Positions 7,299 through 63,929 of a DNA stretch of 64,000 nt are shown here, in pieces (within the stretch, counting starts at the first letter, position 1; each line of letters starts with the position of its first letter). The translations under genes were made by a program, and so were the position numbers. Source of the stretch: Jatrophihabitans cynanchi. Its GTDB lineage: Bacteria > Actinomycetota > Actinomycetes > Mycobacteriales > Jatrophihabitantaceae. The stretch is from positions 3,038,001 through 3,102,000 of the forward strand of contig NZ_CP097463.1 in the NCBI RefSeq assembly GCF_027247405.1, given 5' to 3'. The notes under the pieces were generated by a model that searched no databases, was not told the DNA's origin, and was given only the letters and a program-made list of their open reading frames with translations.

Positions 7299-10200
7299 CG
7301 GTACTCGACCTCCTGGGCGCGGCGGCGGATCACGGTGATCTCGTCACGTTGATTGCCGGTGGGACCGTAGTAGTTGAACCCGTAGGACAGCTGCGCGTAA
7401 CCGCCGATCATGTGTGTCGGCTTGACCACCAGGCGGGTGAGCGAGTTGTCGCCGCCGCCGTGCCAGCCGGACACCTCGGACTTCGGTGTCATCAGGTGCC
7501 GGTCCTTCGCGTGGTACATGAACACGGTTCCTTCCGGCATGCGATGGGTGACCACTGCCCGGCAGGCCACCACGCCGTTGCGGTTGTAGGCCTCTATCCA
7601 GTCGTTGTCCGCGACTGCGATCTTCGCCGCGTCGAGCGGGCTCATCCAGATCACGGGTCCGCCGCGGAACAGCCGCAGCATGTGCAGGTTGTCCTGATAC
7701 TCCGAGTGGATCGACCACTTCGAGTGCGGCGTCAGGTAGCGCACCGTGATCTCCGGCCGTCCGGCGTCGCGCAGGCCCTGCTCACCGAAATGTCGCACGT
7801 AGTCCAGCGGTGGCCGGTAGGTCGGCAAGCTCTCGCCGTATTCCATGATCCAGTCGTGGTCGAGGAAGAAGTGCATGCGTCCGGTGAGGGTGTGCCACGG
7901 CTTCTTGCGCTCCACGTTGACCACGAACGGTGAGTAGCGCCGGCCGCCGGTCTCGCTGCCGGACCACTCCGGCGAGGTGATCACTGCGCGCGGCTGGATC
8001 TGCGTGTCCGCGAAGCTGATGCGCTCGCCCGAGCGTTCCTCGGCGAGATCGGCCAGCTTGACGCCGGTGCGCTCCTCCAGGTCATGCCAACCCTGAACGG
8101 CCACCTGCCCGTTCGTGGTGCCCGACAGCGCGAGGATCGCCTCCGCCAGGTGGATGTCCCTGGTGAGCCGCGGCCGCCCGTCCGCGACCCCGCCGCGCAC
8201 CCGGCCGTTGACCCGGCCGAGCAGGTCGACGGCGGCGGCCGGCTTCCAGCTCACGCCCTTGACCGCGGTGCCCACGCCTTCGACGAGCGGACCGAGCGCC
8301 GCCATCTTCTCGGCCACGGCGGCGTAGTCACGCTCGACGGTGACCAGCCGCGGCATCGTCACGCCCGGGATCGGCTCGCACTCGCCACGCTTCCAGTCCC
8401 GCACCACGCCGCCGGGCTGGGCCTGCTCGTCGGCGGTGTCGTGCAGCAGCGGGGCCGCGATGACGTCGTGGCGGGTGCCCAGGTGCGTCGCGGCGAGTTG
8501 CGAGAACGACTCGCCGATGGTCTTGAACACCTCGAAGTCGGTGCGGGTCTCCCACGGCGGTGCGATCGCCGGGTTGAACGAGTGCACGAACGGATGCATG
8601 TCGGTCGTCGAGATGTCGTGCTTCTCGTACCAGGTCGCGGCCGGCAGCACGATGTCGGAGTAGGTGCAGGTGCTGGTCATCCGGAAGTCGACCGTGGTGA
8701 CCAGGTCAAGCTTGGCCCGTGGTGCCGGGTCGCGCCACCGCACCTCGCTCGGGCGCAGCCGCTCGGGGGACTCCTCAGCGCGCACGGCGTCATCGACACC
8801 GAGCAGGTGCCGCATGAAGTACTCCATCCCCTTGCCCGAGGAACCGAGCAGGTTGGCGCGCCACACCGTCATCACGCGCGGGAAGTTCACCGGGTTGTCG
8901 GGGTCCTCGCCGGCGAAGTGCAACCGGTCGGCCTGGAGCTCACCGGTGACGTACTCGTTCACGTTCTTGCCGGCCGCCGCGGCCTCGTCCGCCAGATCGA
9001 GCGGATTGCGGTCGAAGGCCGGGTGCGAGGGCGTCCAGCCCATCCGCGACGCCTGGGCGAGCGTGTCCGCGAAAGCCTTCCCCCGGAACAGGCCCCTGCC
9101 TAGCGGGCTGGCCAGTTCCTCGGCACCGAAACTCTCGTAGCGCCACTGGTCGGTGTGCAGGTAGAAGAAGGACGTCCCGGTCATGTGCCGGGTGGGCCGC
9201 TGCCAGTCCAGCGCGAAGGCGACCTGCTGGAAACCGGTGAGCGGACGCACCTTCTCCTGCCCGACGTAGTGCGCCCAGCCGCCGCCGTTCACCCCCTGGC
9301 AGCCGCACAGCATCGTCAGCGTGAAGAACGTGCGATAGATCTGGTCGGAGTGGAACCAGTGGTTCGTGCCCGCGCCCATGGCGATCATCGATCGGCCCTT
9401 GGACAGTTCGGCATTGCGCGCGAACTCGCGTGCGACGCGGGTCATCGCTGCCGCCGGGACGGACGTGATGACCTCCTGCCAGGCCGGCGTGTACGGCTGC
9501 GGGTCGTCATAGCCCGTGGGCCAGTCGCCGGGCAGCCCGTCGCGCGAGACCGCGTACTGAGCCATCAGCAGGTCGAACACCGTCGTGACCAGTCGCCCGC
9601 CGAGGCGGCGGACCGGGACGCCGCGGCGGATCGCGCTGCCGCCCTCGGTCGCACCCACGTCGAAGCGAGGCAGGTCGACGGCGACCGCGTCCTCACGCGT
9701 GCCGTACAGGCTGAGCACAGGGTCGATGCCGCCGAGTTCCAGGTTCCACTTGCCCTTGCCGGCCTCGGCGAAGTGGGTGGCCAGCGTGCCGTTGGGGTAG
9801 AACGGCGCTCCCGTCGCGGAGTCCAGCAGGACGGTCTGGTGCGCCGAGCCGTCGGCGTCCAGGTCCGCCGCGGTGAGGAACCGGTCCGGCACATAGCCGT
9901 CGCCGTGTTCGCGCAGCGTCACCAGGAACGGCAGGTCGGTGAAGGACTTCACGTAATCGGTGAAGTACGGCACCTGGCGGTCCCGGAAGAACTCGGTGAG
10001 GATCACGTGTCCCATCGCCATCGCCAGCGCACCGTCGGTGCCCGGCGCGCACGGCAGCCAGTCGTCGGCGAACTTGGTGTGATCGGAGTAGTCCGGACTG
10101 ACCACGACGACCTTCTGGCCGCGGTAGCGTGCCTCGGTCATGAAGTGCGCGTCCGGAGTACGCGTGATCGGCAGGTTGGTGCCCCAGATCATCAGGTACG

Positions 10201-16801: not shown

Positions 16802-19621
<2,820 letters not shown>

Positions 19622-49767: not shown

Positions 49768-50892
49768 CTACCGGTCGAGCACGGCTGTGGCCGCCTCGAC
49801 CGTGCGCTGCCAGATGCGGCTGCCAGGGTCGATGACGGTGAAGTGATCGCCGTCGTCCTCGATCAGTTCCACCTCGTCGCCGCCGGCCGCCGCGGCGCGC
49901 ACGTAGCGCCGGCTCATCTCGCGCAGGTCGGGGCTGTCCGAGCGGCCGATCACGACCAGTTGCGGCACGCCGATGGGCACCCGCTCGATCGGTGACGCGG
50001 CGGCGTAGCGCTGCGGCAGCTGCTCCGGCGTGCCGCCGAGTGCCGCAGGCACGGCGCCGTTGCCCAGGTCACGGCGGTGCGTCTCGAGCAGGTCGACGAG
50101 GCCGGCCAGCTGCACCACCAGCGTCGGCCGCACGGCTCCGCCGTCCGCGGCGACCTGCACGGCCAGCTGGCCGCCGGCCGAGTGGCCGACGAGAGCGACC
50201 CGGTCGGCGTCGACCCCGAACCGTGCCGACAGCTCGCGCACGTGATCGAGCGCGGCCCGCACGTCGGTCAAGGTGGCGTCCCAACCGTGCCGGTCCGGCG
50301 GCCGGTACTCGACGTTCCAGCCGGCCATGCCTCGTTCGGCGACGTCGGCGGCCAGGGCGTCCATCAGGTCAAGCTGCCAGCGTGAGCGCCAGAACCCGCC
50401 GTGCAGCAGGACGACGATGCCGGCGGCGGACGGGCGGTCGGGCAGCCACAGGTCACCGAACTGATCCGGGCCGGGGCCGTAGCGCACCCGCTCGATCGGC
50501 CGGCGCGCGCGGTGGCAGATCGTCCGGAGCGCCCAGCGCACCCCGTCGATGCCGCGACCCTGGATGTGGGCCAGCAGGCCGGGCGAGGCGTCCGGCTCGC
50601 ACAGCGTCAGATCCACGCGCAGCGTCCAGGGCACGACCTCGCGGGGCAGTGCGGCCAGGTGCGCAGTGTCCGGCGCGGTGACCACGATGAGCGGCACGCC
50701 GTCCTCGCGTGCGGCCCGCGCCGCATCGAGCACGCCGTCCGGGACGGAACCCCACCGCACCTCGACGGTCGTGCCCAACGCGCGTGCCTCGTCGGCGGCG
50801 AACTCCTCGAACAGTGCCTCATCGACCGGCTGCCGCTGGGCCAGGATCCGCACGTGCCTCACCGGCGATCCGGCCGGGGACGGCGCGGTCAA
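49768..50892 (-). CDS. Alpha/beta hydrolase with an N-terminal AroQ-like domain
   Basis: The C-terminal 240 residues are an alpha/beta hydrolase: oxyanion LLHGGFWR, nucleophile GHSAGG, acid near IGRSDSPD and His in DDGDHFTVID; the HGGFW form is like kynurenine formamidases and BAAT-type esterases. The first 125 residues follow the order of type II dehydroquinate dehydratase (AroQ): RILAQRQPVDE, TVEVRWGS, LIVVTAPDTAHLAAL, WTLRVDLT and GRGIDGVRWALRTI. The AroQ catalytic Tyr, Asn and His positions are not conserved. The TTG at 50892 overlaps the amidohydrolase stop by 4 bp. Confidence 0.72.
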   Translation of the reverse strand: MTAPSPAGSPVRHVRILAQRQPVDEALFEEFAADEARALGTTVEVRWGSVPDGVLDAARAAREDGVPLIVVTAPDTAHLAALPREVVPWTLRVDLTLCEPDASPGLLAHIQGRGIDGVRWALRTICHRARRPIERVRYGPGPDQFGDLWLPDRPSAAGIVVLLHGGFWRSRWQLDLMDALAADVAERGMAGWNVEYRPPDRHGWDATLTDVRAALDHVRELSARFGVDADRVALVGHSAGGQLAVQVAADGGAVRPTLVVQLAGLVDLLETHRRDLGNGAVPAALGGTPEQLPQRYAAASPIERVPIGVPQLVVIGRSDSPDLREMSRRYVRAAAAGGDEVELIEDDGDHFTVIDPGSRIWQRTVEAATAVLDR

Positions 50893-52121
50893 GCGCGCAG
50901 GCCGGTGCGGTCGTCGCGGACGACCTCGCCGCCCTTCATCACCCAGCGCAGTGACCGGAGCGCCGACACGTCCTGCGTCGGATCGGTGTCCATCGCGATC
51001 AGGTCGGCGTACTTGCCCGGTTCGACGGTGCCGAGCTGCTCGTCGGCGCCGAGCCAGCGGGCCGGCACGATCGTCGCCGCGCGCAACGCCTCGACCGGAG
51101 CCAGCCCGAACGCTGCCATGTGCTCGAGTTCGCGCACCGTGGCCGTGGTGCCTTCGGTCGGCTGGAACGGCGGCATGTCGCTGCCCAGCATCAGCTCGAC
51201 GCCGGCGGCAAGCGCCAGTCGGTAGCTCTCGACGTGCCGCTCGCCCGCGCCGAGCGAGCGCTGCTGCATCCACTCCGGGACGCCGAGCGAGTCGAAGAAG
51301 TCCTTGCAGCGCGTGACGATCAGGGTCGGGACGAGGCTGGTGCCGTTCTCGGCCATCAGCTTCACGACCGGCTCGGTCAGCTGGTAGCCGTGCTCGACGC
51401 AGTCCAGGCCGAGCCGCACCGCCTGCTCGATGATCGGTGCCGGCCCGGCGTGCGCGGTGACCTTGCGGCCCCAGGCGTGCGCGGTCTCGATGACCGCGGC
51501 GATCTCGTCACCGGTGAGCTGCGGGGTGTCGATCGCCTCGTGCTCGCCGGCGATACCGCCGGAGATCATCACCTTGATCAGGTCGGCGCCCGCGCTGATC
51601 TGGGCACGCGTGCCGCGGCGGAACGCGTCGGCGCCGTCGCACTCGAGCGTGTCGCTGCCCTCGTGCCCGTGGCCGCCGGTGCAGACCAGCGCGCGGCCGG
51701 CGGTGAAGATGCGCGGCCCGCTCGTCCAGCCGGCGTCGATGGCCGCCCGGAGGGCGAACTCGGCGTGGGCCTTCTCGGCGACGCAGCGCACCGTGGTGAC
51801 GCCCGAATGCAGCGTGCGGCGCGCCCCGGAGGCCATGTACAGCGCGAGCGAGTGGGGCGACATCCGGCTGACCGCATCGCCGCCGGGCCCGGGCAGCGAC
51901 AACGACAGGTGCGTGTGCATGTTCAGCAGCCCGGCCATCACGTAGCCGCCGCCGAGGTCGACCTCGCGCGCGCTGTCCGGCGCCGCCGCCCGCACGCCGG
52001 CCTCCGGCCCGACGGCGAGGATCCGCCCGTCGCGCACCGCGACGGCGCCCGCGTACGGCCGGTCCTGCACGCCGTCGAAGACGTGGCAGTTGCGCACGAT
52101 GGTGGTTGCCGATCCGGTCAC
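50889..52121 (-). CDS. Metal-dependent amidohydrolase (imidazolonepropionase/prolidase-like)
   Basis: The 410-residue TIM-barrel amidohydrolase has the metal motif HTHLSLS (about 69), carbamate-Lys region LIKVMISGG (about 184), KVTAHAG and VEHGYQL histidines, and the Asp in LMLGSDMPPFQP (about 319). This set is shared by imidazolonepropionase-like enzymes and Xaa-Pro/Xaa-Arg dipeptidases. An AGGAG site precedes the GTG. It overlaps the alpha/beta hydrolase gene and is divergent from the MDMPI/DUF885 genes across an AT-rich control region. Confidence 0.88.
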   Translation of the reverse strand: MTGSATTIVRNCHVFDGVQDRPYAGAVAVRDGRILAVGPEAGVRAAAPDSAREVDLGGGYVMAGLLNMHTHLSLSLPGPGGDAVSRMSPHSLALYMASGARRTLHSGVTTVRCVAEKAHAEFALRAAIDAGWTSGPRIFTAGRALVCTGGHGHEGSDTLECDGADAFRRGTRAQISAGADLIKVMISGGIAGEHEAIDTPQLTGDEIAAVIETAHAWGRKVTAHAGPAPIIEQAVRLGLDCVEHGYQLTEPVVKLMAENGTSLVPTLIVTRCKDFFDSLGVPEWMQQRSLGAGERHVESYRLALAAGVELMLGSDMPPFQPTEGTTATVRELEHMAAFGLAPVEALRAATIVPARWLGADEQLGTVEPGKYADLIAMDTDPTQDVSALRSLRWVMKGGEVVRDDRTGLRA

Positions 52122-52265
52122 GCTCGCTCCTGGCGGTCGATGGTCGGGGGTGTTCAGCGCTGTTCAATATAGACGAACGCTGTTCACCATAGCTATATTG
52201 ACGGCGGATGGACCGTGCCGCCCAGTGTGCCGCGGTCGCGAGGCACGGACGAGGAGTACCGACGC
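52122..52265. promoter_or_regulatory. Divergent control region with direct and inverted repeats
   Basis: The region holds CAATATAG (52165) and CTATATTG (52193), perfect 8-bp inverted arms 20 bp apart. It also holds a direct repeat CGCTGTTCA-NN-ATAG at 52158 and 52178, exactly 20 bp apart, and a third TGTTCA at 52151. The core CGAAC-GCT-GTTC (52174-52185) matches the palindrome in the ABC-operon promoter at 54682. This points to co-regulation of the amidohydrolase side and the transport side. TATATT elements on both strands are possible -10 boxes. Confidence 0.65.
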
Positions 52266-53027
52266 GTGAGCGCAGCAGCCGACATGCTCGAGGTGGACGC
52301 GTTCTTGCAGACCCTGGACCAGACGCCGCCGAACGCGGTCACCGCCTGCCGGGGCTGGACGACGCACGAGTTGATCGCCCACCTTGCCTCCGGAGCCGAC
52401 GCCTTCGCCGCCCAGGTCGAGGCGCATCTCGAGGGCCGCACCGTGCCGGAGTTCGGCGCGTGGGACGTCCGCGAACCGCCGTACCGCGCGATGGACGACG
52501 CGGTGCTGCGCCGCCGGCTGCAGGCCGGCGAGCGGCGGATGACGGCGGCGTTCGAGGCGATGCTCGCCGCCGACCCGCAGGTGGCCGTGCCCGAGGTGGG
52601 CTGGGGGCTGCCGGTGGCCGAACTGGTCACCCACATGCGGCAGGAGTTCGCGATCCACCGCTGGGACCTGGTCGGCGACGACGAGCTGGGGCTGGAACTG
52701 CTCGGCCGCCAGTACCTGACGGAGCACTCGGTGCGGCTGCTCGGCGATTCGCTGCTGGGCGGGCTGCGGCAGGACCCGGCGCCGAACGAGCCGTTGCGGG
52801 TGCGGATCCGGTGCGCGAGCCTGGCCGACCTCGTCGTCCGGGTCGGCGAGGGGACCGGTGCGTTGACGATGGAACCGCAGGACGAGTCGGCACACGTGGT
52901 GGAGACCGATCCGGCCGCGCGCCTGCTGCTGCTCTGGGGCCGCCGCCCGACCGATGCCGGCCGCGTCCGCAGCTCCCTCGCGCCCGAACAGCTGGCTCGG
53001 CTGCAGACCGTGCTGACCGGATACTGA
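52266..53027 (+). CDS. MDMPI/DinB-like (TIGR03083-type) protein
   Basis: The 253-residue protein has an N-terminal DinB-like four-helix bundle (VDAFLQTLDQTPPNAVTACRGW, ELIAHLASGADAFAAQVEAHL) with candidate metal ligands His 36-37 region and EFAIHRWDL, then a C-terminal SCP2-like beta domain. The family includes mycothiol-dependent maleylpyruvate isomerase and other mycothiol transferases. The GTG at 52266 has a GAGGAG site nine bases upstream; another GTG at 52215 is in frame. A DUF885 gene follows after 5 bp. Confidence 0.82.
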   Translation: MSAAADMLEVDAFLQTLDQTPPNAVTACRGWTTHELIAHLASGADAFAAQVEAHLEGRTVPEFGAWDVREPPYRAMDDAVLRRRLQAGERRMTAAFEAMLAADPQVAVPEVGWGLPVAELVTHMRQEFAIHRWDLVGDDELGLELLGRQYLTEHSVRLLGDSLLGGLRQDPAPNEPLRVRIRCASLADLVVRVGEGTGALTMEPQDESAHVVETDPAARLLLLWGRRPTDAGRVRSSLAPEQLARLQTVLTGY

Positions 53028-53032
53028 GCGCG

Positions 53033-54652
53033 GTGAGCGACGCGCTGCACCCGTACGTCGAGTTCGTCTTCGACGCCGACCCGATCCTCGCCTCCGGGCA
53101 GGGTGACACGCGCGGCCGCACCCGGCTCGGCGACATCGAGCCGGAAGCCTTCGCGGCGCAGGACGAGACCCGCGCGCGGCTGCTCGCCGAGGCCGAGGCG
53201 GCCGCGCCCGCCGAGGCGGGCACCGTCGAGCGGCTCGAGCAGCAGGTGCTGCTGACCGAGTTGCGCACGACGTGTCACCGCAGTGAGACCGAGGCCACCT
53301 GGCGGCGCGCACCCTACTGGTACGCCGAGCGGCTCGGTGCGGCGATCGGCGCGCTGATGAGCTCGGACGGCGACCCGGACGCTGCCGAGGCGCTGCTCGC
53401 CCGGCTGCGCGCGATCCCGGGCTACTGCGCGCAGGCGCAACGCAACCTGTCGACCGACACGCCGCAGCTGTGGGCCGAACTGGGGCTCAGCAGTGCGCGC
53501 GGGCTGGAGCAGTTCCTCGGCCGCGCCGTGGCGGGATACGCGCAAACGCGGCCCGGCACGCTCGGTGACGAGATCGCCGCTGCCGCCACTGCCGCGGCAC
53601 AGGCCGCAGCGGACTTCGCCGTGTTCGTCGCGGAACTCGCCGGCCGGGCCGCCGGGTCGTGGGCGTGCGGCCGCGAGCAGTTCGACTTCCTGCTTCGCAC
53701 CTACCACCACCTGGATCTGGACGCCGCCGGGCTGGCCGAACTCGGTCGCGAACTGGTCGAGCGCGAACGCGCCGCACTGCAGCGGCTGGCCGCCGAGATC
53801 GACCCGGGCACCAGCTGGCAGGCGCAGATCGACCGGATCAAGGACTGGCATCCGCAGCCGCCGCAGTTCCTGCGGACGTACGAGGACGCGATGCGCCGAG
53901 CGCGCGAGCACACCCGCGAGCACGACCTGATCACGCTGCCCGAGGGCGAGGTGTGCGAGCTCGACTGGGTGCCGGAGTTCCGGCGCGACGGTTTGCCACT
54001 GGGCGAGATGTCGCCGAGCCCGCCGTTCGCCCCCGGTCTGCGCAGCGGTTTCCTGATCACGCCCGGCGACGACGGCGAGGACGCCGCACGGCGGCGTGAA
54101 CACATGCGGGACAACTGCTTCGTGTTCGCGACCTCGATCGCGGGACACGAGACCTACCCCGGTCATCACGTGCAGTACGTGCACCACAAGCTCGGGACGC
54201 CGCGCGGGTCGATCCGGCGGTACTTCAGCACCCCGCAGTTCGTCGAGGGCTGGGGCCTGTACGTCGAGGACGTGCTCGAGCAGACCGGCTTCATGGCCGA
54301 CGACCGGGTGCGGCTGTTCAAGCAGCGCAATGCCCTGTGGCGGGCGCTGCGCGTGGTCGTCGACGTCGGCCTGCACACCGGCACGACCAGCCTGCCGGCG
54401 GCCACCGAACTGATGCAGCGCGAGGCGGGCATGGATCCGCACCTGGCCGCCGGCGAGGTGCGCCGGTATGCCCGGCACGACAACCCGACGTACCCGTCCT
54501 CGTACGCGCTCGGCCGCGACCTGATCCACCGGCTCCGGGCAGAGCACGAACGGGCGCGGGGCAGCGCGTTCACGTTGCGCACCTTCCACGACTGGCTGCT
54601 GTCCTTCGGCTCGCCGCCCGTCCCGCTGCTCGCGCAGCTGCATCTCGGTTGA
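53033..54652 (+). CDS. DUF885 metallopeptidase-like protein (first copy)
   Basis: The 539-residue, mostly helical protein has the DUF885 zinc motif HETYPGHHVQYVH (about residues 370-382) and TPQFVEGWGLYVEDVLEQTGFM after it, the HExxxGHH..E arrangement expected of a gluzincin-like carboxypeptidase. The start is a GTG 5 bp after the MDMPI-like stop. Family members are poorly characterised; peptidase activity on small or modified peptides is inferred. The stop codon overlaps the -35 of the ABC operon promoter. Confidence 0.88.
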   Translation: MSDALHPYVEFVFDADPILASGQGDTRGRTRLGDIEPEAFAAQDETRARLLAEAEAAAPAEAGTVERLEQQVLLTELRTTCHRSETEATWRRAPYWYAERLGAAIGALMSSDGDPDAAEALLARLRAIPGYCAQAQRNLSTDTPQLWAELGLSSARGLEQFLGRAVAGYAQTRPGTLGDEIAAAATAAAQAAADFAVFVAELAGRAAGSWACGREQFDFLLRTYHHLDLDAAGLAELGRELVERERAALQRLAAEIDPGTSWQAQIDRIKDWHPQPPQFLRTYEDAMRRAREHTREHDLITLPEGEVCELDWVPEFRRDGLPLGEMSPSPPFAPGLRSGFLITPGDDGEDAARRREHMRDNCFVFATSIAGHETYPGHHVQYVHHKLGTPRGSIRRYFSTPQFVEGWGLYVEDVLEQTGFMADDRVRLFKQRNALWRALRVVVDVGLHTGTTSLPAATELMQREAGMDPHLAAGEVRRYARHDNPTYPSSYALGRDLIHRLRAEHERARGSAFTLRTFHDWLLSFGSPPVPLLAQLHLG

Positions 54653-54678
54653 CGCGGCCCGCTCGCTGCGTTTAGTGT
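54649..54678 (+). promoter_or_regulatory. Promoter of the ABC transporter operon (TTGACG, N18, TAGTGT)
   Basis: TTGACG (54649-54654) and TAGTGT (54673-54678) are 18 bp apart. The -10 lies inside a symmetric operator, so a bound protein would block transcription start. An AAGGAG ribosome-binding site (54731) precedes the ATG at 54741. Confidence 0.6.
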
Positions 54679-54702
54679 CACCGAACGTTGTTCGTCAACA
54701 CT
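54674..54702. promoter_or_regulatory. 29-bp symmetric operator AGTGT-N3-CGAAC-GTT-GTTCG-N3-ACACT
   Basis: Both pairs of arms (AGTGT/ACACT and CGAAC/GTTCG) are perfect and share the centre at 54688. The site covers the -10 and the expected transcription start of the ABC operon. Its core CGAAC-GYT-GTTC recurs at 52174-52185. The XRE-cupin protein encoded in the operon is a natural candidate for the repressor. Confidence 0.65.
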
Positions 54703-54740
54703 GAATCTGCGGCCAGCCCGCATTGGCCCGAAGGAGCACC

Positions 54741-56336
54741 ATGACCGGTCGGTTGATCCGGCGCGTCACCGTCGCAGCTGTGGCAGCTCTCGGCGTCGCA
54801 GCGCTCGCCGCCTGCAGCAGTGAGGACTCCGGCGGCAACGGCGGCAGCTCGACGCTGACGGTCGACACGTCGTTCGTGGTCAAGAGCCTGGACCCGGGCG
54901 CGGTCTACGAGCCCACCGGCAACGTCATCGTCCACGCGCTCTACGACACCCTGGTCACCTTCGACGGCTCGGACATCTCCAAGCCGGTCCCTGACCTGGC
55001 CAAGTCGTACACAGCCGCACCGGACGGCAAGAGCTTCACCTTCGTGCTGCGTGACGACGCCGTCTTCAACGACGGCTCCAAGGTCACTGCCGCGGACGTG
55101 GTGTTCAGCCTCAACCGGCTCAAGAACCTCAAGGGCAGTGCCGCCGCGATCGTCAAGGACCTGAGCGCGAGTGCGACGGACGAGCACACCGTCGTCGTGA
55201 CCAGCGCGGTGCTGAACCCGAACGTGCCCACGATCCTGGCCGAACCGTACGCCGGCATCCTCAGTGCCAAGCTGGCCAAGCAGCACGGCGGCGAGGACGG
55301 CCCCGACGCGAGCAAGACCGACAAGCTCGGCAGCTACCTGAACACCGCGACGGTCGGCAGCGGGCCGTACCGGATCGAGTCCTTCGACGCCGCCTCGCGG
55401 ATCGTGCTGACGGCGAACGACAAGTACTGGGGCAACAAGCCGGCGTTCAAGCGCGTCGTGTTCCAGAACATGGACGTCCAGAACCAGAAGCTGACGATGT
55501 CCAAGCAGCCCAAGTCCGAGATCGCGCTCGACCTCGCAGGCGACTCGCTGTCCGGCCTGCCGGGCGCGCTGCAGCAGTCCGGCAGCGCGGACTCCTACTA
55601 CCAGCTGCGGTTGCACGCCGACCCGGCCGTCAGCGAGGTGACGTCCAACCGCGACTGGGTGAACGCCCTGCAGGCCGCGCTGGACTACAAGGGACTGGCC
55701 GCGCTGTTCGGCTCCTCCGGCGTCCCGGCTGCCGGGATCGTGCCGACCGCCTACGCCGGCGCGCTGCCCGAGTCCGAGGCGCAGACGCAGGACCTGGCCA
55801 AGGCCAAGTCGCTCGCCGAGCAGTCCGGTGTCGCATCCAAGTCGGTGAAGCTGCTGTACCCGGCGATCACGTTCGGCGGGGTGGACCTCGGCACCATCGC
55901 GGCGAAGGTGCAGAGCGACGCGGCCAAGGCCGGGTTGAAGATCGAGCTCGACCCGGCGCCGATCGCGTCCTTCCTGGACCAGCGGCGCGGCGGCAAGGTG
56001 GCGTTCAGCTTCAGCCCGCAGCTGCTGGACTACCCGGTGGCAGCCTCCGTCGTCGCCGACCTGATGCCCGGCGGTGGGACGGCCCAAGCTGCCGGGTGGA
56101 CCGCGGACCGCGCCGATCCCGCCACGGTCGCCGCCGCGAACAAGGTGCTGACCGCGCTCGACGCCAAGGAGCAGGTCGCCGCGCTGCAGGACTGGCAGCG
56201 GCTGATGATCAACCACTCGCCGTACATCACCCTCGTCTACAACTCCGGCACCGTCGTCGCGAGCGCCGATCTCAAGGGCGCGGTGTACACCGCCGCCGGC
56301 TGGGTCGTCGACATCGCGGACATCAGCAGCCGTTGA
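54741..56336 (+). CDS. Peptide/nickel-type ABC transporter substrate-binding lipoprotein (family 5)
   Basis: The 531-residue lipoprotein has a signal peptide with lipobox LAAC (mature Cys about 25), then TLTVDTSFVVKSLDPGAVYEPTGNVIVHALYDTL and KVTAADVVFSLNRL, characteristic of SBP_bac_5 (DppA/OppA-type) proteins. It captures a peptide-like or other small ligand outside the membrane. The ATG has an AAGGAG site. The gene is first in an ABC operon and overlaps the permease gene by 4 bp. Ligand identity cannot be read from sequence. Confidence 0.93.
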   Translation: MTGRLIRRVTVAAVAALGVAALAACSSEDSGGNGGSSTLTVDTSFVVKSLDPGAVYEPTGNVIVHALYDTLVTFDGSDISKPVPDLAKSYTAAPDGKSFTFVLRDDAVFNDGSKVTAADVVFSLNRLKNLKGSAAAIVKDLSASATDEHTVVVTSAVLNPNVPTILAEPYAGILSAKLAKQHGGEDGPDASKTDKLGSYLNTATVGSGPYRIESFDAASRIVLTANDKYWGNKPAFKRVVFQNMDVQNQKLTMSKQPKSEIALDLAGDSLSGLPGALQQSGSADSYYQLRLHADPAVSEVTSNRDWVNALQAALDYKGLAALFGSSGVPAAGIVPTAYAGALPESEAQTQDLAKAKSLAEQSGVASKSVKLLYPAITFGGVDLGTIAAKVQSDAAKAGLKIELDPAPIASFLDQRRGGKVAFSFSPQLLDYPVAASVVADLMPGGGTAQAAGWTADRADPATVAAANKVLTALDAKEQVAALQDWQRLMINHSPYITLVYNSGTVVASADLKGAVYTAAGWVVDIADISSR

Positions 56337-57448
56337 CCGAGCCGCACCTGCCGGACGGCGGCGCCGCAATCGCCACCGCCGACCCCGACCAGCAGGTTCC
56401 GGGCCGCTCCGAACCCCCCGGCCCGTCCCGGAACCTGCTGCGGTTCGTCGGCAAGAAGGTGGCGATCACCGCCGGGCTGCTGCTCGGCGTCACGATCCTG
56501 ACGTTCCTGCTGGTGCAGGCGGTGCCCGGCGATCCGACCACGACGAACCTGTCCGAGACCGCGCAGAAGGACCCGTCCGTGGTCGCGGCGTACCGCGCCA
56601 AATGGGGCCTGGACAAGTCGCTGCCGGTGCAGTACTTCACCTACCTGAACCACCTGCTGCACGGCGACCTGGGCACATCGCAGAGCACCGGCAACCCGGT
56701 GGCGTCCGATCTGGGCAAGTACGTGCCCGCGACGCTCGAACTCGCGATCCCGGCGATGATCCTCGCACTCGCGATCAGCGTCGGCCTCGGGCTGTGGGCC
56801 GCGGTGCGCAAGGACAAGCCCGCCGACCACGCGATCCGCGGAGTGGCCCTGGTCGGCCTGTCGACGCCGTCGTTCTGGCTGGCGATCGTCGTGCTGTACA
56901 TCTTCTTCTACAAGCTGGGCTGGGCACCGAACGGGGGCCGGCTCAGCGCGCGGTACACCCCGCCCGAGCACGTCACCGGCATGTACACGGTGGACGCGCT
57001 GCTGCAGGGCCGGCCGATCGCGTTCCAGGACGCGCTCTGGCACCTGATGCTGCCGGTGCTCGTGCTCACCGCGCTGACCGTGTCGGTGCTGATCAGGTTC
57101 GTCCGCTCGGCGATGCTCGAAGTCCTGGACCAGGACTACATCAAGGCCGCGTACGCCAAGGGCCTGTCGCGGCGCACGGTGCTGCGCAGGCACGTGCTGC
57201 GCGCCGGGCTGGTGCAGGTGGTCACCGTCGCCGGACTGGCGTTCGCCTCGCTGCTGTCCGGAACGGTGCTGATCGAGCAGATCTACAGCTGGCCCGGCCT
57301 CGGCCAGTACGCGTACCGCTCCGCGCTCAACCTGGACCTGCCCGCCATCATGGGTGTCGGGCTGTTCGTCGCGCTGGTGTACACCCTGGTGAACCTGATC
57401 ATCGACATCCTGTACGGCGTCATCGACCCGCGGATCAGGCTGTCATGA
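56333..57448 (+). CDS. ABC transporter permease (DppB/OppB type)
   Basis: The 371-residue protein has six membrane helices, the first in VAITAGLLLGVTILTFLLVQ, the family signature DPTTTNL after it, and the ABC-interacting EAA-like loop YIKAAYAKGLSRRTVLRRHVLR. It has a hydrophilic N-terminal extension of about 40 residues. The TTG start overlaps the stop of the binding-protein gene, and its own stop overlaps the next permease gene, showing strict coupling. Confidence 0.93.
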   Translation: MTEPHLPDGGAAIATADPDQQVPGRSEPPGPSRNLLRFVGKKVAITAGLLLGVTILTFLLVQAVPGDPTTTNLSETAQKDPSVVAAYRAKWGLDKSLPVQYFTYLNHLLHGDLGTSQSTGNPVASDLGKYVPATLELAIPAMILALAISVGLGLWAAVRKDKPADHAIRGVALVGLSTPSFWLAIVVLYIFFYKLGWAPNGGRLSARYTPPEHVTGMYTVDALLQGRPIAFQDALWHLMLPVLVLTALTVSVLIRFVRSAMLEVLDQDYIKAAYAKGLSRRTVLRRHVLRAGLVQVVTVAGLAFASLLSGTVLIEQIYSWPGLGQYAYRSALNLDLPAIMGVGLFVALVYTLVNLIIDILYGVIDPRIRLS

Positions 57449-58368
57449 CCGGCGTCCCGTCCACGCTCGCCGCCGATTCCGCTCCGCCGGCCCTGCCCGC
57501 CCGCCGCTGGTTCGGGTTGCGCCCGGGTGCCCCACGCGCCGAACGTGTCGCGCGTCGACGGCACAGTCGTGGCCTGACCGTCGCCGCGTGCGTGATCCTC
57601 GCCGCCTGGGCACTCGTCGCGGTGTTCGCTCCGCTGCTCGCCCCGCACGATCCGCTCGCCCAGTCCGGCCCGTACTACGCGTCGCCGTCGGCCGCGCACT
57701 GGTTCGGCACCGACCAGCTCGGCCGCGACATCCTCAGCCGCATCCTCTACGGGGCAAGGCTGTCCCTGCCGCTGGCGGTCGTCATCGTCGCACTAGCGCT
57801 GCTCATCGGCGGCGGCCTGGGCCTGATCGCCGGCTACATCGGACGCTGGGTCGACGAGTCGCTGATGCGCCTCACCGACCTGGTGTTCGCGTTCCCGCCG
57901 ATCATCCTGGCGATGGTGGTGACGGCCGCGTTCGGGCCGAGCGCACGCAACGCGGTACTCGCGCTGGTGCTGGTGTCCTGGCCGACGTACGCGCGGGTCG
58001 TGCGCAGCGCGGTGCTCTCGATCCGCAGCTCGGACTTCCTGCACGCGTCGCGGCTGCTCGGCGTCGGGCCGTGGCAGGCGCTGCGCCGGGACGTGGTACC
58101 CAACAGCGTCGGCCCGTCCGTCGTGCTCGCCAGCCTGGAACTCGGCAACGCGGTGCTGATGCTCGCCTCGCTCTCGTTCCTCGGACTGGGCCCGCGCCCG
58201 CCGGCGCCGGAGTGGGGCGCGATGATCGCGGCCGGCTCGAACGACCTGTCCAAGTGGTGGGTGAGCATCATCCCCGGCATCGCTATCCTCACCGCGGTGC
58301 TCGCGTTCAACCTGCTCGGTGACGCGGTGCGCGACTGGCTCGACCCGCGCGCCCGGAACGCGCGATGA
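57445..58368 (+). CDS. ABC transporter permease (DppC/OppC type)
   Basis: The 307-residue protein begins with a basic cytoplasmic tail, then a first helix near residue 47 and HWFGTDQLGRDILSRILYGAR, the hallmark of DppC-type permeases. The EAA-like loop SSDFLHASRLLGVGPWQALRRDVVPN is present. It forms the channel with the DppB-type partner. Start and stop overlap neighbours by 4 bp. Confidence 0.95.
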   Translation: MTGVPSTLAADSAPPALPARRWFGLRPGAPRAERVARRRHSRGLTVAACVILAAWALVAVFAPLLAPHDPLAQSGPYYASPSAAHWFGTDQLGRDILSRILYGARLSLPLAVVIVALALLIGGGLGLIAGYIGRWVDESLMRLTDLVFAFPPIILAMVVTAAFGPSARNAVLALVLVSWPTYARVVRSAVLSIRSSDFLHASRLLGVGPWQALRRDVVPNSVGPSVVLASLELGNAVLMLASLSFLGLGPRPPAPEWGAMIAAGSNDLSKWWVSIIPGIAILTAVLAFNLLGDAVRDWLDPRARNAR

Positions 58369-59357
58369 GCGCCGTGAACGGGCCGCTGCTGCAGGTCAGC
58401 GGGCTGTCGGTCACGCTGCGCGGTTCGGACGGGCCACTGCCGGTGATCAAGGATCTCGACCTGCAGGTGAACCCCGGCGAGATCGTCGGCATCGCCGGTG
58501 AGAGCGGATCGGGCAAGAGCCTGACGGCACTCACCCTGCTCAACCTGCTGCCACCGGGTGCCACCGTGACCGGGTCGATGCGCTTCGCCGGCACCGAGCT
58601 GACCGGCCTCGACCGGCGCGGGTGGCAGCGGACGCGTGGCTCGGGCATCGCGATGGTCTTCCAGGACGCCAGCGCGGCGCTGCACCCGATGCTCACCGTC
58701 GGCGTCCAGCTGACCGAGCACATGCGCTCCGGGCTGGGTCTGAGCCGGGCGGCGGCTCGCGCGCGGGCGATCGAACTGCTCGAGCAGGTGCGGATCCCGC
58801 AGCCGGAGCGGGCGCTGCGCTCGTACCCGCACCAGTTCTCCGGCGGCATGCGGCAGCGGGTTGCGATCGCCATCGCGCTGGCCTGCCGCCCGCAGCTGCT
58901 CATCGCGGACGAGCCCACGACGGCCCTGGACGTCACCGTGCAGGCCGGCATCCTCGCGCTGCTCGACGAACTGCGCCGCGACAACGACCTCGCCGTGCTG
59001 TTCATCACGCACGATCTCGGCGTGCTGTCCTCGCTCACCCGGCGGGCGTACGTCTTCTACGCCGGCCGGGTGATGGAGAGCGGCAGCACCGTGCAGGTGC
59101 TCACCGACCCGGCGCACCCCTACACGGCCGCGCTGCTCGCCGCACGCCCGCACGGGCTCAGTGCCACCCGCACGCTGCGCGCGATCCCGGGCGCACCGGT
59201 GCTGCCCGGCCAGGAGCCGCCCGGCTGCCCGTTCGAGCCGCGCTGCACGTTCGCGCTCGACGCGTGCCGTGCCGGGGTACCGCCGCACGAGCCGATCGCG
59301 CACGGCCGCACCCTGGCCTGTGTGATCTCGCCCGACCTGAGCGGGGCGGACCGGTGA
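58365..59357 (+). CDS. ABC transporter ATPase (DppD/OppD type)
   Basis: The 330-residue ATPase has Walker A GESGSGKS (about 45-52), a signature motif FSGGMRQRV, Walker B LLIADEPTTALD and the H-loop ITHDLG. The C-terminal oligopeptide-transporter extension with cysteines (CPFEPRCTFALDAC) likely binds an Fe-S cluster or metal, as in OppD/DppD. It pairs with the following ATPase, and both gene junctions overlap by 4 bp. Confidence 0.95.
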   Translation: MSAVNGPLLQVSGLSVTLRGSDGPLPVIKDLDLQVNPGEIVGIAGESGSGKSLTALTLLNLLPPGATVTGSMRFAGTELTGLDRRGWQRTRGSGIAMVFQDASAALHPMLTVGVQLTEHMRSGLGLSRAAARARAIELLEQVRIPQPERALRSYPHQFSGGMRQRVAIAIALACRPQLLIADEPTTALDVTVQAGILALLDELRRDNDLAVLFITHDLGVLSSLTRRAYVFYAGRVMESGSTVQVLTDPAHPYTAALLAARPHGLSATRTLRAIPGAPVLPGQEPPGCPFEPRCTFALDACRAGVPPHEPIAHGRTLACVISPDLSGADR

Positions 59358-60334
59358 GCGATCTTCTCACCGTCGAGGACCTGCGGGTCGAGTACCGGCC
59401 GCGCGGGCGTGGCGTCGTGCGCGCCGTCACCGGCGTCGACCTGGCCGTCGCTGCCGGCGAAGTGGTCGGGTTGGTCGGCGAGTCCGGCTGCGGGAAGTCC
59501 TCGCTGGCCCGCGTGGTCGCCGGGTTGGCCGCGCCGAGCGGCGGCCGGGTGCTGTTCGCCGGTGAGCCCGTGGTGCCGCTGGCCTGGCGTAAGCGGCCGG
59601 CCGCCCAGACCCGGCTGCAGATGATCTTCCAGGACCCGGGTGGGTCGCTGAACCCGCGGCGCACCGTCGGCGCGCAACTGCTCGACGGTGTTCCCGCCGG
59701 CGTCACCGGCTCGGACCGCCGGGCACGGGTTGCCGAACTGCTCGAGCGCGTAGGCATGTCCGCCGCAGCGGGCGAGCGCTTCCCGCACGAGTTCTCCGGC
59801 GGCCAGCGGCAGCGGTTGGCCATCGCCAGGGCCCTCGCCGCTGAGCCCGAGCTGATCATCGCCGACGAGCCGGTGACCGCCCTGGACGCCTCGGCGCAGG
59901 CGCAGGTGGTCTCGCTGCTGCTGTCCCTCGTGCGCGAGCTCGACATGGGGCTGCTGTTCATCTCGCACGACCTCGCGCTGGTGCACGAGATCGCCGACCG
60001 CACCGCGGTGATGTACCTCGGCACGATCGTCGAGACCGGCCCGACCCGCCGGCTGATGGCCGAGCCGCGCCACCCGTACACCCAGGCGCTCGTCGGCGCG
60101 ATCCCGCAGGTCTCGGCCGAGCCCCGGCTGCCGTCCGTGCTGCGTGGCGAGGTTCCGGACCCGTCACACATCCCGTCCGGCTGCCGGTTCCGGCCGCGCT
60201 GCCCGTATGCCGTCGAGATCTGCCGCACCGAACCGGTGCTGCGTGCGGCGGCCGGCTCGCTCGTCGCGTGTCACCGCGCCGAAGAACTCGCCGCCGTACC
60301 GGCGGACGTCACCCAGAACGGAGAGTCCCGATGA
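59354..60334 (+). CDS. ABC transporter ATPase (DppF/OppF type)
   Basis: The 326-residue ATPase has Walker A GESGCGKS, the signature FSGGQRQRL, Walker B LIIADEPVTALD and H-loop ISHDLA. The C terminus has the CRFRPRCPYAVEIC cysteine motif of the oligopeptide family. With the DppD-type subunit it powers the importer. The GTG start overlaps the upstream stop, and the NTF2-like gene starts within its stop codon. Confidence 0.95.
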   Translation: MSDLLTVEDLRVEYRPRGRGVVRAVTGVDLAVAAGEVVGLVGESGCGKSSLARVVAGLAAPSGGRVLFAGEPVVPLAWRKRPAAQTRLQMIFQDPGGSLNPRRTVGAQLLDGVPAGVTGSDRRARVAELLERVGMSAAAGERFPHEFSGGQRQRLAIARALAAEPELIIADEPVTALDASAQAQVVSLLLSLVRELDMGLLFISHDLALVHEIADRTAVMYLGTIVETGPTRRLMAEPRHPYTQALVGAIPQVSAEPRLPSVLRGEVPDPSHIPSGCRFRPRCPYAVEICRTEPVLRAAAGSLVACHRAEELAAVPADVTQNGESR

Positions 60335-60759
60335 GCGCCCGCACCCGCGAGAACGACGGGCCGGTGGCAGCGGCGGTGCGCGCGATGTACGCGGCCTACC
60401 CCGACCCGGCCGGCTTCGATGTTCACCTGCACCCGCAGATCACCATCTGGGAGAGCGATCAGCCTGGACCGCTCATCGGCCTGGACGAGCTGACCGCGCT
60501 GCGCGATCGCCGCTCCCCGGACGAGGCGGCACCGCGCCCGACGCTGTCGGTCGAGGACCTGCTCGTCGACCGCTGGGGCGAGACGGCCGCGGTCGCCCGG
60601 TACGTGCTGCGCGCGAGCGCACCCGACGGCGAGCTGACGTTCCGGGTGAGCGACGTCTGGGACGGCGCCGGCGACCGATGGCAGATCGTGCACCACCACG
60701 CCGAACAACTTGCAGGCGCCATCGGGACCCCGGTCCCGATGGCCGACACTGGTCAGTGA
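60331..60759 (+). CDS. NTF2/SnoaL-like protein
   Basis: The 142-residue protein has the cone-shaped NTF2-like pattern: an initial helix (AAAVRAMYAAYPDPAGF), then FDVHLHPQITIWESDQPGPLIGLDEL, and a final beta sheet ending WQIVHHHAEQL. SnoaL-like proteins act as small isomerases, hydrolases or binding proteins. The His pair near the C terminus and Asp near residue 30 could be active-site residues. Its start overlaps the ABC ATPase stop, so it belongs to the import operon. Confidence 0.7.
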   Translation: MSARTRENDGPVAAAVRAMYAAYPDPAGFDVHLHPQITIWESDQPGPLIGLDELTALRDRRSPDEAAPRPTLSVEDLLVDRWGETAAVARYVLRASAPDGELTFRVSDVWDGAGDRWQIVHHHAEQLAGAIGTPVPMADTGQ

Positions 60760-60787: not shown

Positions 60788-61324
60788 ATGTTGGGCGAAC
60801 GACTTCGCGAACTGCGCCTGCGTCACGGACTGACGCTGCGCGAGCTGGCGATCGAGGCAGAGGTATCTCCGGCCCTGCTGAGCCAGTTGGAGAACGGGGT
60901 CACCGATCCGAGCCTGTCCACGCTGCGCAAGCTGGCCACGGTGTTCAAGGCCGAGGTGTCCACCCTCTTCAGCGAACCCAATGCGCCGATGGTGCACCTG
61001 TCCCGGCCGGGCGAGCGGATGCATCTGACCGCGCCCCTCGGCGAGATCAGTTACGAACGGCTGACTCCCGGCCGCGGCGACCTCGAGGTGCTCTCCGCGA
61101 CGATGAAGCCGGGCGATGTCAGCTCCTCGGAACGGCGTGGTCACGAATCGACCGAGTGCCTCGTGGTCCTCGAAGGCGAGGTGGTCGTGGAGATCGAGAC
61201 CGAACGGCACGTGGTGCAGGCCCGCGAAGCGCTCACCTTCGACTCACGGCTCGCGCACCGGTTCTGCAACGAGAGCCTGGAGCCGGCCGTGTTCCTGCTC
61301 GCCGTCACCCCGCCGGTCCCGTGA
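60788..61324 (+). CDS. XRE-family regulator with C-terminal cupin domain
   Basis: The 178-residue protein has an N-terminal HTH_3 domain (LRELRLRHGLTLRELAIEAEVSPALLSQLENG, residues about 6-40) and a C-terminal cupin (HESTECLVVLEGEVVVEIE, about 118-136; LAHRFCNES). This design is typical of sensors of small catabolites such as those controlling amino-acid or polyamine use. It lies within the import/degradation operon, with a GGAGGGG site before the ATG. It probably binds the shared CGAAC-GYT-GTTC operator (inference). Confidence 0.9.
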   Translation: MLGERLRELRLRHGLTLRELAIEAEVSPALLSQLENGVTDPSLSTLRKLATVFKAEVSTLFSEPNAPMVHLSRPGERMHLTAPLGEISYERLTPGRGDLEVLSATMKPGDVSSSERRGHESTECLVVLEGEVVVEIETERHVVQAREALTFDSRLAHRFCNESLEPAVFLLAVTPPVP

Positions 61325-62319
61325 CCGGCCAGGTGACGCTCGGTGTCCAGTCCGACAAGTCGGCAGCCGAGTACGCCCGGCTCGGCGTGCTGGCCGAATC
61401 GCTCGGTTTCGACGGCGTGTCGGTGTTCCACGACCTGGGCTTTCAGCCCTCGCTCTTCCCGCTCCTGGAGATGGCCCGCGTCACCGAGCGGATCAAGCTC
61501 GGCGCCGCGTGCTTGAACCCGTTCCTGCTGCACCCGGTCGAGATCGCCGGCCAGGCCGCCGCGCTCGATCTGGCGTCCGACGGCCGGGCGTACGTCGGGC
61601 TGACCCGCGGTGCCTGGCTGGACCGGCTCGGGGTGCGGACCGAGCGCCCGCTCCGCGCGATCAGCGAGACCGTCGAGGTCGTGCAGCGGCTGCTGCGGGG
61701 TGACGAGAGTGCTTACGCCGGCGCGGTGTTCCCGCTCGCGGCGGGGACGCGGTTGGGCTACCCGCGCTGCCGCGAACGCATCGAGGTGCTCATCGGCACC
61801 TGGGGCCCGCGCGGGCTGGCGATGGCCGGCCGGATCGCGGACGAGGTCAAGCTCGGCGGCTGCGCGAACCCGGACATGGTGCGGCACGCGCGCAGCTTGC
61901 TGGACGCGGCGAGCGGTGCCGCCGGTCGTGCGCCGCTCGGGCTGGTGGCCGGAGCGGTGACGGTCGTCGACGCGGACGGCCCGGCCGCGCGAGCGCGTGC
62001 TCGCACCGAGGTCGCGATGTACCTCGACGTGGTGGCCGCGCTCGACGTCACCGTGCAGGTGCCCGACGACGTGCTCGTCCCGCTGCGGGCGGCGCTCGCC
62101 TCGGGCGATGCCGAGGCGGCCGGCCGGCTCATCCCGGACGACGTGCTCGACCGGTTCGCGTTCGCGGGCACTCCCGAGCAGGTCGCCACCCACGCCGCGG
62201 CGCTCGTCGACGCGGGCGCCAGCCGCATCGAGTTCGGTACCCCGCACGGGCTCACCGACGCCGAAGGCGTCGAACTGCTCGGCAAGCGCGTCCTGCCCGC
62301 GCTGAGGGAGGTTCGATGA
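61321..62319 (+). CDS. LLM-class flavin-dependent oxidoreductase (luciferase-like)
   Basis: The 332-residue TIM-barrel protein has the luciferase-like monooxygenase pattern: YARLGVLAESLGFDGVSVFHDL, LEMARVTERIKLGAACLNPFLLHPVEIAGQAAALD and YVGLTRGAWLDRLG. Members use FMN or coenzyme F420; the cofactor cannot be fixed from sequence, though F420-using methylene-H4MPT-reductase-like members are common in actinobacteria. Its GTG overlaps the regulator stop. It may oxidise or reduce the imported compound. Confidence 0.88.
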   Translation: MTGQVTLGVQSDKSAAEYARLGVLAESLGFDGVSVFHDLGFQPSLFPLLEMARVTERIKLGAACLNPFLLHPVEIAGQAAALDLASDGRAYVGLTRGAWLDRLGVRTERPLRAISETVEVVQRLLRGDESAYAGAVFPLAAGTRLGYPRCRERIEVLIGTWGPRGLAMAGRIADEVKLGGCANPDMVRHARSLLDAASGAAGRAPLGLVAGAVTVVDADGPAARARARTEVAMYLDVVAALDVTVQVPDDVLVPLRAALASGDAEAAGRLIPDDVLDRFAFAGTPEQVATHAAALVDAGASRIEFGTPHGLTDAEGVELLGKRVLPALREVR

Positions 62320-63929
62320 ACGCGGCCGAGATCGCCGACCGGTTGCTGGCGGACCTGGCACCCATCGACACCGACGCCGCCGAGGCGCTCGGTACCGAAC
62401 CGGTCTCGTTGATGCCGGCACTCGCGCCGGCCGACTTCGCCGCGCGGCACGAGGCGTACCTGCGTGCCGAACGCGCGCTCGCCCAACCGGATGACGACCC
62501 GACCGCGGGCGTGCTTGCCGCAGCGCTGCGCGAGCGGGTGGGCAGCGAACTCGCGCTCGACGAGGCCGGGTTCACCACTGCGCTGCTGGCCCCGCTGGCG
62601 ACGCCGGTCCACGCGGTCCGCGAGGTCTTCGACAAGCTGCCGCGGGAAAGCGCCGGCGACTGGGAGCGCGTCGCCGCGCACCTCGCGCAGGTTCCGCCGG
62701 CGCTGCAGGCCTATGCGGCGACGCTGCGCGAGAGTGCGGGCCGCGGGCACGTCGTGGCCGCCCGCCAGGTGCTCGGCGCCGCCGCTCAGTGCGAGCGCTG
62801 GATCGGCCCGGACGACTTCTACGGCCGGCTCGCCAGGTCCGGCCCGGACGATCCGCGCCTGGCCGCCGGCGCCGCGGCGGCTACCCGGGCGACCGCGGAG
62901 TTCGCCCGGTTCCTGCGCGAGGAACTGCTGCCGCTGGCGCCGGAACGCGACGCCGCCGGGCGCGAGCTGTACACGGTGACGGCCCGCGCGTTCCTCGGCG
63001 ACGGTGTCGATCTGGACGAGACGTACGCGTTCGGCTGGGACGAGCTGGCCCGGCTAACCGCGGAGATGAACGCCGTCGCGCGCGAACTCGGCGCGACGTC
63101 CGTCGAGGAGGCGGCGGCCGCGCTGGACGCCGACCCGGCGCGCAGGTTGCACACCCCGGACGAACTGCTGGGCTGGCTGCAGCAGCGGGTGGACGAAACG
63201 GTCGAGGCGATCGACGGGGTGCACTTCGACCTGCCCGCGGTCTCACGCGCGCCGCAGTGCCGGATCTCCGACGCGTCGGCCGGTGTCATGTACTACTCGC
63301 AACCGGACCCGGCGTTCACCCGCCCGGGCCGGATCGTGTGGGCGCCGGCCGAGACCTCGCACACCTGGCGCGAGGTCACCACGCTGCACCACGAGGGGGT
63401 TCCGGGCCACCACCTGCAGATCGTCACCGCCCTCGCCGAACCGGGACTGCACCCGTGGCAGCGCTCGATGGCGCACGTGCACGGCTACGTCGAGGGGTGG
63501 GCGCACTACGCCGAGCGGCTGTGCGGCGAACTCGGCCTGCTGCGCGATCCGGGCGAGCGGCTCGGCATGTTGTACGGCCAGCGCTGGCGGGCGGCCCGCA
63601 TCGTGATCGACATGGGGCTGCACCTGGACCTGCCGATCCCGCCCGGGAACGGCTTCACCGAGCAGACCCACTGGACGCCAGAGCTCGGCGTCGCCGTGCT
63701 GCGGGCGGCGTCCGGCGCCGAGGAGCAGGCGGCCCGGTTCGAGGTCGACCGCTACTTCGGCTGGCCCGGGCAGGCGCTGTCGTTCCGGATCGGCGCGCGG
63801 CTGTGGCAACAGATCCGTGAGGCGGCCGCGCGGCGTCCCGGCTTCGACCTGCGCGCGTTCCACACGTCGGCGCTGCGGCTGGGACCGCTCGGCCTCGGCC
63901 CGCTGCGAAAGGTGATGCTCGATGCCTGA
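62316..63929 (+). CDS. DUF885 metallopeptidase-like protein (second copy)
   Basis: The 537-residue protein has the DUF885 motif HHEGVPGHHLQIV (about residues 359-371) and VHGYVEGWAHYAERLCGELG with the second-shell Glu. It is only distantly similar to the first DUF885 gene 8 kb upstream, which suggests different substrates and not a recent duplication. The ATG overlaps the LLM stop by 4 bp, and the next gene starts 8 bp before its stop. Confidence 0.88.
   Translation: MNAAEIADRLLADLAPIDTDAAEALGTEPVSLMPALAPADFAARHEAYLRAERALAQPDDDPTAGVLAAALRERVGSELALDEAGFTTALLAPLATPVHAVREVFDKLPRESAGDWERVAAHLAQVPPALQAYAATLRESAGRGHVVAARQVLGAAAQCERWIGPDDFYGRLARSGPDDPRLAAGAAAATRATAEFARFLREELLPLAPERDAAGRELYTVTARAFLGDGVDLDETYAFGWDELARLTAEMNAVARELGATSVEEAAAALDADPARRLHTPDELLGWLQQRVDETVEAIDGVHFDLPAVSRAPQCRISDASAGVMYYSQPDPAFTRPGRIVWAPAETSHTWREVTTLHHEGVPGHHLQIVTALAEPGLHPWQRSMAHVHGYVEGWAHYAERLCGELGLLRDPGERLGMLYGQRWRAARIVIDMGLHLDLPIPPGNGFTEQTHWTPELGVAVLRAASGAEEQAARFEVDRYFGWPGQALSFRIGARLWQQIREAAARRPGFDLRAFHTSALRLGPLGLGPLRKVMLDA

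Follow-up and report, generated by a model that had tools for sequence, protein, structure and literature searches.

Do the transporter operon and the divergent amidohydrolase and MDMPI-like genes of this Jatrophihabitans cynanchi cluster answer to one operator, and if so, what is its unit and which protein would bind it? Within the window, the whole 64-kb stretch of DNA that was analysed, the cluster runs from left to right through genes for a DUF1028 protein, an alpha/beta hydrolase and an amidohydrolase (minus strand), a divergent region (52122-52265), and genes for an MDMPI-like and a DUF885 protein. After the transporter promoter follow the substrate-binding protein, two permeases, two ATPases, a SnoaL-like protein, an XRE-cupin protein, an LLM oxidoreductase and a further DUF885 protein (Table 1). 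Downstream of the transporter most genes overlap or almost abut, which probably places the XRE-cupin gene within the transporter operon. The candidate transporter promoter was not called by the consensus scanner. Our reading, to which we give a probability of about 0.85, is that both promoters carry two-unit operators for the XRE-cupin protein, which would block transcription until a ligand binds.

Table 1. Genes, candidate promoters and operator units of the cluster (window positions).
Feature	Position	Strand	Remarks
Amidohydrolase, COG1228 type	50889..52121	-	related to Cc2672 and prolidases
Possible third weak unit, GTTCAGCGCTGTTCAAT	52152..52168		one good half; 19-bp match 52151-52169, window rank 6, 7.6 bits
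Unit A', divergent amidohydrolase/MDMPI promoters, GTTCAATATAGACGAAC	52162..52178		window rank 2; kept in G118 and G165
Candidate rightward promoter, TAGACG-18-TATATT	52170..52199	+	over A' and B'; consensus scan
Unit B', GTTCACCATAGCTATAT	52182..52198		20 bp from A'; 19-bp match 52181-52199, window rank 4, 9.2 bits
MDMPI-N family protein	52266..53027	+	
DUF885 protein	53033..54652	+	
Candidate transporter promoter, TTGACG (54649-54654), 18 bp, TAGTGT (54673-54678)	54649..54678	+	read by eye
Unit A, transporter promoter, GTTTAGTGTCACCGAAC	54670..54686		GTTYRG-n5-CYRAAC; best window site
29-bp dyad of the sequence-only reading	54674..54702		spans the right half of A, a 3-bp gap and the left half of B
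Unit B, transporter promoter, GTTCGTCAACACTGAAT	54690..54706		20 bp from A; 19-bp match 54689-54707, window rank 9
SBP_bac_5 ABC transporter substrate-binding protein	54741..56336	+	transporter operon gene 1
Two permease and two ATPase transporter genes	56390..60334	+	starts approximate; ORFs, matching genes in relatives
SnoaL-like protein	60331..60759	+	
XRE-cupin regulator, 178 aa	60788..61324	+	proposed repressor; Pfam HTH_31/HTH_3, Cupin_2
LLM oxidoreductase and second DUF885 protein	61321..63929	+	overlapping genes after the regulator

Operator units at the two promoters

The sequence-only reading had drawn the shared operator as a perfectly symmetric 29-bp dyad at the transporter promoter, whose core recurs in the divergent amidohydrolase/MDMPI control region. 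Both sequences are present (AGTGTCACCGAACGTTGTTCGTCAACACT at 54674-54702 and CGAACGCTGTTCA at 52174-52186) and the 29-mer does contain a dyad, AGTGT-n3-CGAAC-n3-GTTCG-n3-ACACT, but the symmetry is imperfect and extends to 10 of 14 position pairs. The full 29-mer occurs once in the genome, even with up to three mismatches. The 13-bp core alone was set aside as weak, non-specific evidence, being expected 3.5 times per 64 kb with one mismatch allowed, and CGAAC-n3-GTTCG has nine exact copies in the 4.5-Mb genome.

A motif was derived blind, by palindromic expectation-maximisation, from the DNA between the XRE-cupin and transporter genes of relatives whose XRE-cupin orthologue stands divergent beside the transporter operon, with the J. 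cynanchi genome and two relatives (G118 and G165) left out. The motif obtained, TGTTTAGCnnnGCTAAACA (consensus TGTTTAG-n5-CTAAACA), reached a likelihood of 199 in the one-per-cluster run vs 43 +/- 6 in dinucleotide shuffles. Its best site in the window fell on the transporter promoter (54669-54687, 16.3 bits) and its second best on the amidohydrolase/MDMPI promoter (52161-52179, 13.3 bits), with a weaker second copy exactly 20 bp after the best site at each promoter. The operator is therefore redrawn, on this motif, as two putative tandem pairs, A with B and A' with B' (Table 1). At each promoter two 17-19-bp units stand 20 bp apart, and the earlier GAAC-n3-GTTC corresponds to the right half of the first unit, a 3-bp gap and the left half of the second; the dyad centred at 54688 reads as the junction of two tandem 17-bp units, and the operator appears to have been drawn 10 bp out of phase.

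Unit B is weak in J. cynanchi (4.3 bits), and its equivalent scores highest of the sites in G118 and G165. When the three genomes are aligned, unit B' keeps GTTCAyCrTrGCTATA and the possible third unit shows no visible conservation. The units overlie the candidate transporter -10 and the candidate rightward -10 (TATATT) of the divergent region, and probably its leftward -10 as well.

Specificity was assessed by pattern searches over the 4.5-Mb genome and by motif scoring on a 400-kb sample. The tandem pattern GTTYA-n7-YRAAC-n3-GTTY, derived from the J. cynanchi sites and hence informative through the absence of others, has exact genome matches solely at the two cluster promoters; once relaxed at one base, a change made to admit the G118 transporter site, it yields exact matches in G118 and G165 solely at their two equivalent promoters. 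No single site in the 400-kb sample exceeded 11.0 bits with the blind motif, and no 20-bp pair exceeded 6.5 bits, vs 20.6 and 22.4 at the two promoters. Single units are less specific: a loose palindrome has 73 matches genome-wide, and unit A' is eighth by 17-column score among the 50 single-unit matches listed. A loose 19-bp palindrome with two mismatches proved too permissive (993 matches), and the strongest stray single site examined, at 3021949 within a MoeA-like coding sequence, was taken as chance. Genome-wide, it is the tandem pattern and not the core that singles out the two promoters, and the targets predicted by this search are confined to nearby uptake and catabolic genes.

Conservation of the sites and linkage to the XRE-cupin gene

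The same cluster is present in G118 and G165 (transporter proteins 77-79% identical to those of J. cynanchi; XRE-cupin proteins 88.8% and 85.4% identical), with no MDMPI-like match and a relocated LLM gene in the latter. All three genomes share TTGAC and TTTAGT at the transporter promoter, and the operator comes after them in the same place; the divergent promoter reads GTTCAATATAGACGAACGCTGTTCACCATAGCTATATT, GTTTACCATAGACGAACTAAGTTCATCGTGGCTATATT and GTTCAATCTAGACGAACAAAGTTCATCATGGCTATAGT in J. cynanchi, G118 and G165, respectively. Such conservation at both promoters is stronger evidence than the recurrence of the core. The LLM gene of G165 lies on the opposite side of the cluster, and the stretch 3' of its XRE-cupin gene resembles the remnant of a former LLM copy (L071, about 18740-18950 and 7555-8535).

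The transporter gene has an XRE-cupin orthologue as its divergent neighbour in Micromonospora, Actinocrispum, Prauserella, Rhodococcus, G243 and G328, and in several genera these orthologues are 49-66% identical with the motif lying between the two genes. Motifs trained with one clade left out recover the Prauserella/G243, Actinocrispum and Rhodococcus sites; in G328 the XRE-cupin gene is present, the motif is poor and the leave-one-clade-out motif does not find the site. A second tandem operator is located just 5' of the amidohydrolase operon in Rhodococcus (L083, 5829-5868), Prauserella (L081, 6056-6094) and G243 (L077, 5616-5654), so the two-promoter design recurs. A YtcJ-like amidohydrolase gene, of which none was seen in the window's cluster, precedes the COG1228 amidohydrolase gene, with the second operator, in L083 (5887-7494) and L081 (6152-7759).

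The XRE-cupin protein combines an N-terminal XRE-type HTH with a C-terminal cupin (HTH_31, HTH_3 and Cupin_2 above cut-off), its orthologues are 49-89% identical in the clusters compared, and no regulator besides it was found in the conserved cluster. In relatives, the palindromic arm-N5-arm site TGTTTAG-n5-CTAAACA lies beside its gene, and in 39 transporter loci without an XRE-cupin gene the blind motif reaches at most 10.2 bits, a comparison in which four of the XRE-bearing loci belonged to the motif training set (the leave-one-clade-out results are given above). Synteny and the XRE-less loci thus favour the protein at 60788 as candidate regulator, as the sequence-only reading had proposed. 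The shared operator is strongly upheld at both promoters by blind motif discovery, genome-wide tandem specificity and conservation in several genera, with 17-19-bp units at 20-bp spacing in place of the 29-bp dyad. The J. cynanchi genome also encodes, at 1953863-1954393, another XRE-cupin-like protein with about 35% identity, and the motif is absent from the close neighbourhood of its gene.

Proposed mechanism, known systems and alternatives

We infer that one XRE dimer contacts one unit, a 17-19-bp palindrome (T)GTTYRG-N5-CYRAAC(A), and that two units 20 bp apart, being two helical turns apart on the same face, would leave room for two dimers side by side, possibly binding cooperatively. When no inducer is present, the dimers at 54670-54706 and 52162-52198 would lie over the -10 regions and obstruct RNA polymerase, shutting off the transporter operon and the divergent amidohydrolase and MDMPI-DUF885 genes, and a small ligand at the cupin domain would release them. 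The XRE-cupin protein would also control itself, because its gene probably belongs to the transporter operon in J. cynanchi and is divergent from that operon elsewhere. The ligand is probably a peptide-like or N-acyl amino-acid transporter substrate, or its product. A peptide-like substrate is plausible by analogy, given how close the amidohydrolase is to Cc2672 and to prolidases. The solved structures nearest to it include Cc2672 and further COG1228 enzymes (L-Arg carboxypeptidase, Xaa-Pro dipeptidase). Its score as a Xaa-Pro dipeptidase is below the cut-off (264.8 vs 500).

Operator control of this type is already known, and its standing as ordinary local gene regulation is well supported. 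PsdR of Pseudomonas aeruginosa is an XRE-cupin repressor of dppA3 and mdpA, involved in dipeptide uptake (PMC10965056, PMC7901475), and recognises TTAAG-n5-CTTAA in two dipeptide-gene promoters (PMC10965056). Both systems share the XRE HTH and cupin, a palindromic site with a 5-bp spacer, and local control, from two promoters, of an enzyme of peptidase type and the binding protein of a peptide transporter; they differ in the half-site (TTAAG vs GTTTAG here), in the tandem 20-bp units found here and in the enzymes. PuuR and PauR, XRE-cupin regulators of polyamine genes, have the same domain layout, and PuuR is the best NCBIfam model, but no polyamine genes were seen in the present cluster, and PuuR identity was rejected at 65.5 bits vs an equivalog cut-off of 211.

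That the functional unit is instead the 29-bp dyad centred at 54688, holding one dimer or a side-by-side tetramer, is unlikely. At the transporter promoter the symmetry of this middle dyad extends further than that of either unit, and G118 retains a similar dyad, but its own centre scores -11.7 bits with the blind motif (rank 3920 in the window scan) and its counterpart at the amidohydrolase/MDMPI promoter -8.2 (rank 1642), and its 3-bp core disagrees with the PsdR spacer, with which the re-phased unit agrees. Furthermore, the spacing between units is 20-23, 30-31 or 42 bp in Micromonospora, Actinocrispum, Prauserella and Rhodococcus, and the middle dyad is therefore mostly broken while the 17-19-bp units are kept. 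The case illustrates that a dyad spotted by eye may mark where the units of a tandem operator meet, here corrected via relatives. The expected frequency of the core would by itself allow the match between the two promoters to be accidental, a reading left with negligible probability by the conservation of both promoters in two relatives, the restriction of the tandem pattern to these promoters across the genome and the blind rediscovery of the motif.

Another regulator encoded elsewhere, e.g. of the TetR family, might bind both promoters, and GAAC/GTTC inverted repeats are common among TetR operators. This is very unlikely given that the motif tracks the XRE-cupin gene, staying below 10.3 bits in all of the XRE-less transporter loci scanned, and that the conserved cluster yielded no other regulator. 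Activation of one or both promoters by the XRE-cupin protein has a precedent in XRE regulators such as NceR and is quite unlikely here: the sites overlap candidate -10 regions, and in Pseudomonas those XRE-cupin proteins that were tested act as local inhibitors (PMC7901475), which are also the grounds on which we favour repression.

Repression by the XRE-cupin protein from tandem operators would supply an operator, a regulator and a regulon for a conserved cluster that comprises a transporter, an amidohydrolase, two DUF885 proteins, an LLM oxidoreductase and a DUF1028 protein, and the inducer of the regulator would point to the substrate of the cluster. The open-access literature searched yielded no account of this operator from actinobacteria, and we consider it probable that the sites define a new XRE-cupin regulon in several actinobacterial genera, in which 17-19-bp palindromes arrayed on one face of the helix, at intervals of about 20-23 or 30 bp, let one regulator control both the transporter and the amidohydrolase genes of a pathway for peptide-like compounds.

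The transporter of Herbidospora and Acrocarpospora is merely 37-39% identical and the motif is different. Their XRE-transporter intergenic regions carry dyads of the form GTGCAG-n5-CTGCAC with the same 6-5-6 geometry (L099, 9653-9671; L119, 9689-9707), and the recognition helix is changed from Ala to Thr before LLSQ; together, dyad and helix change may represent a natural specificity switch. Herbidospora also has a strong motif site (L099, 20035-20053, 20.4 bits) 5' of a second, distant transporter gene.
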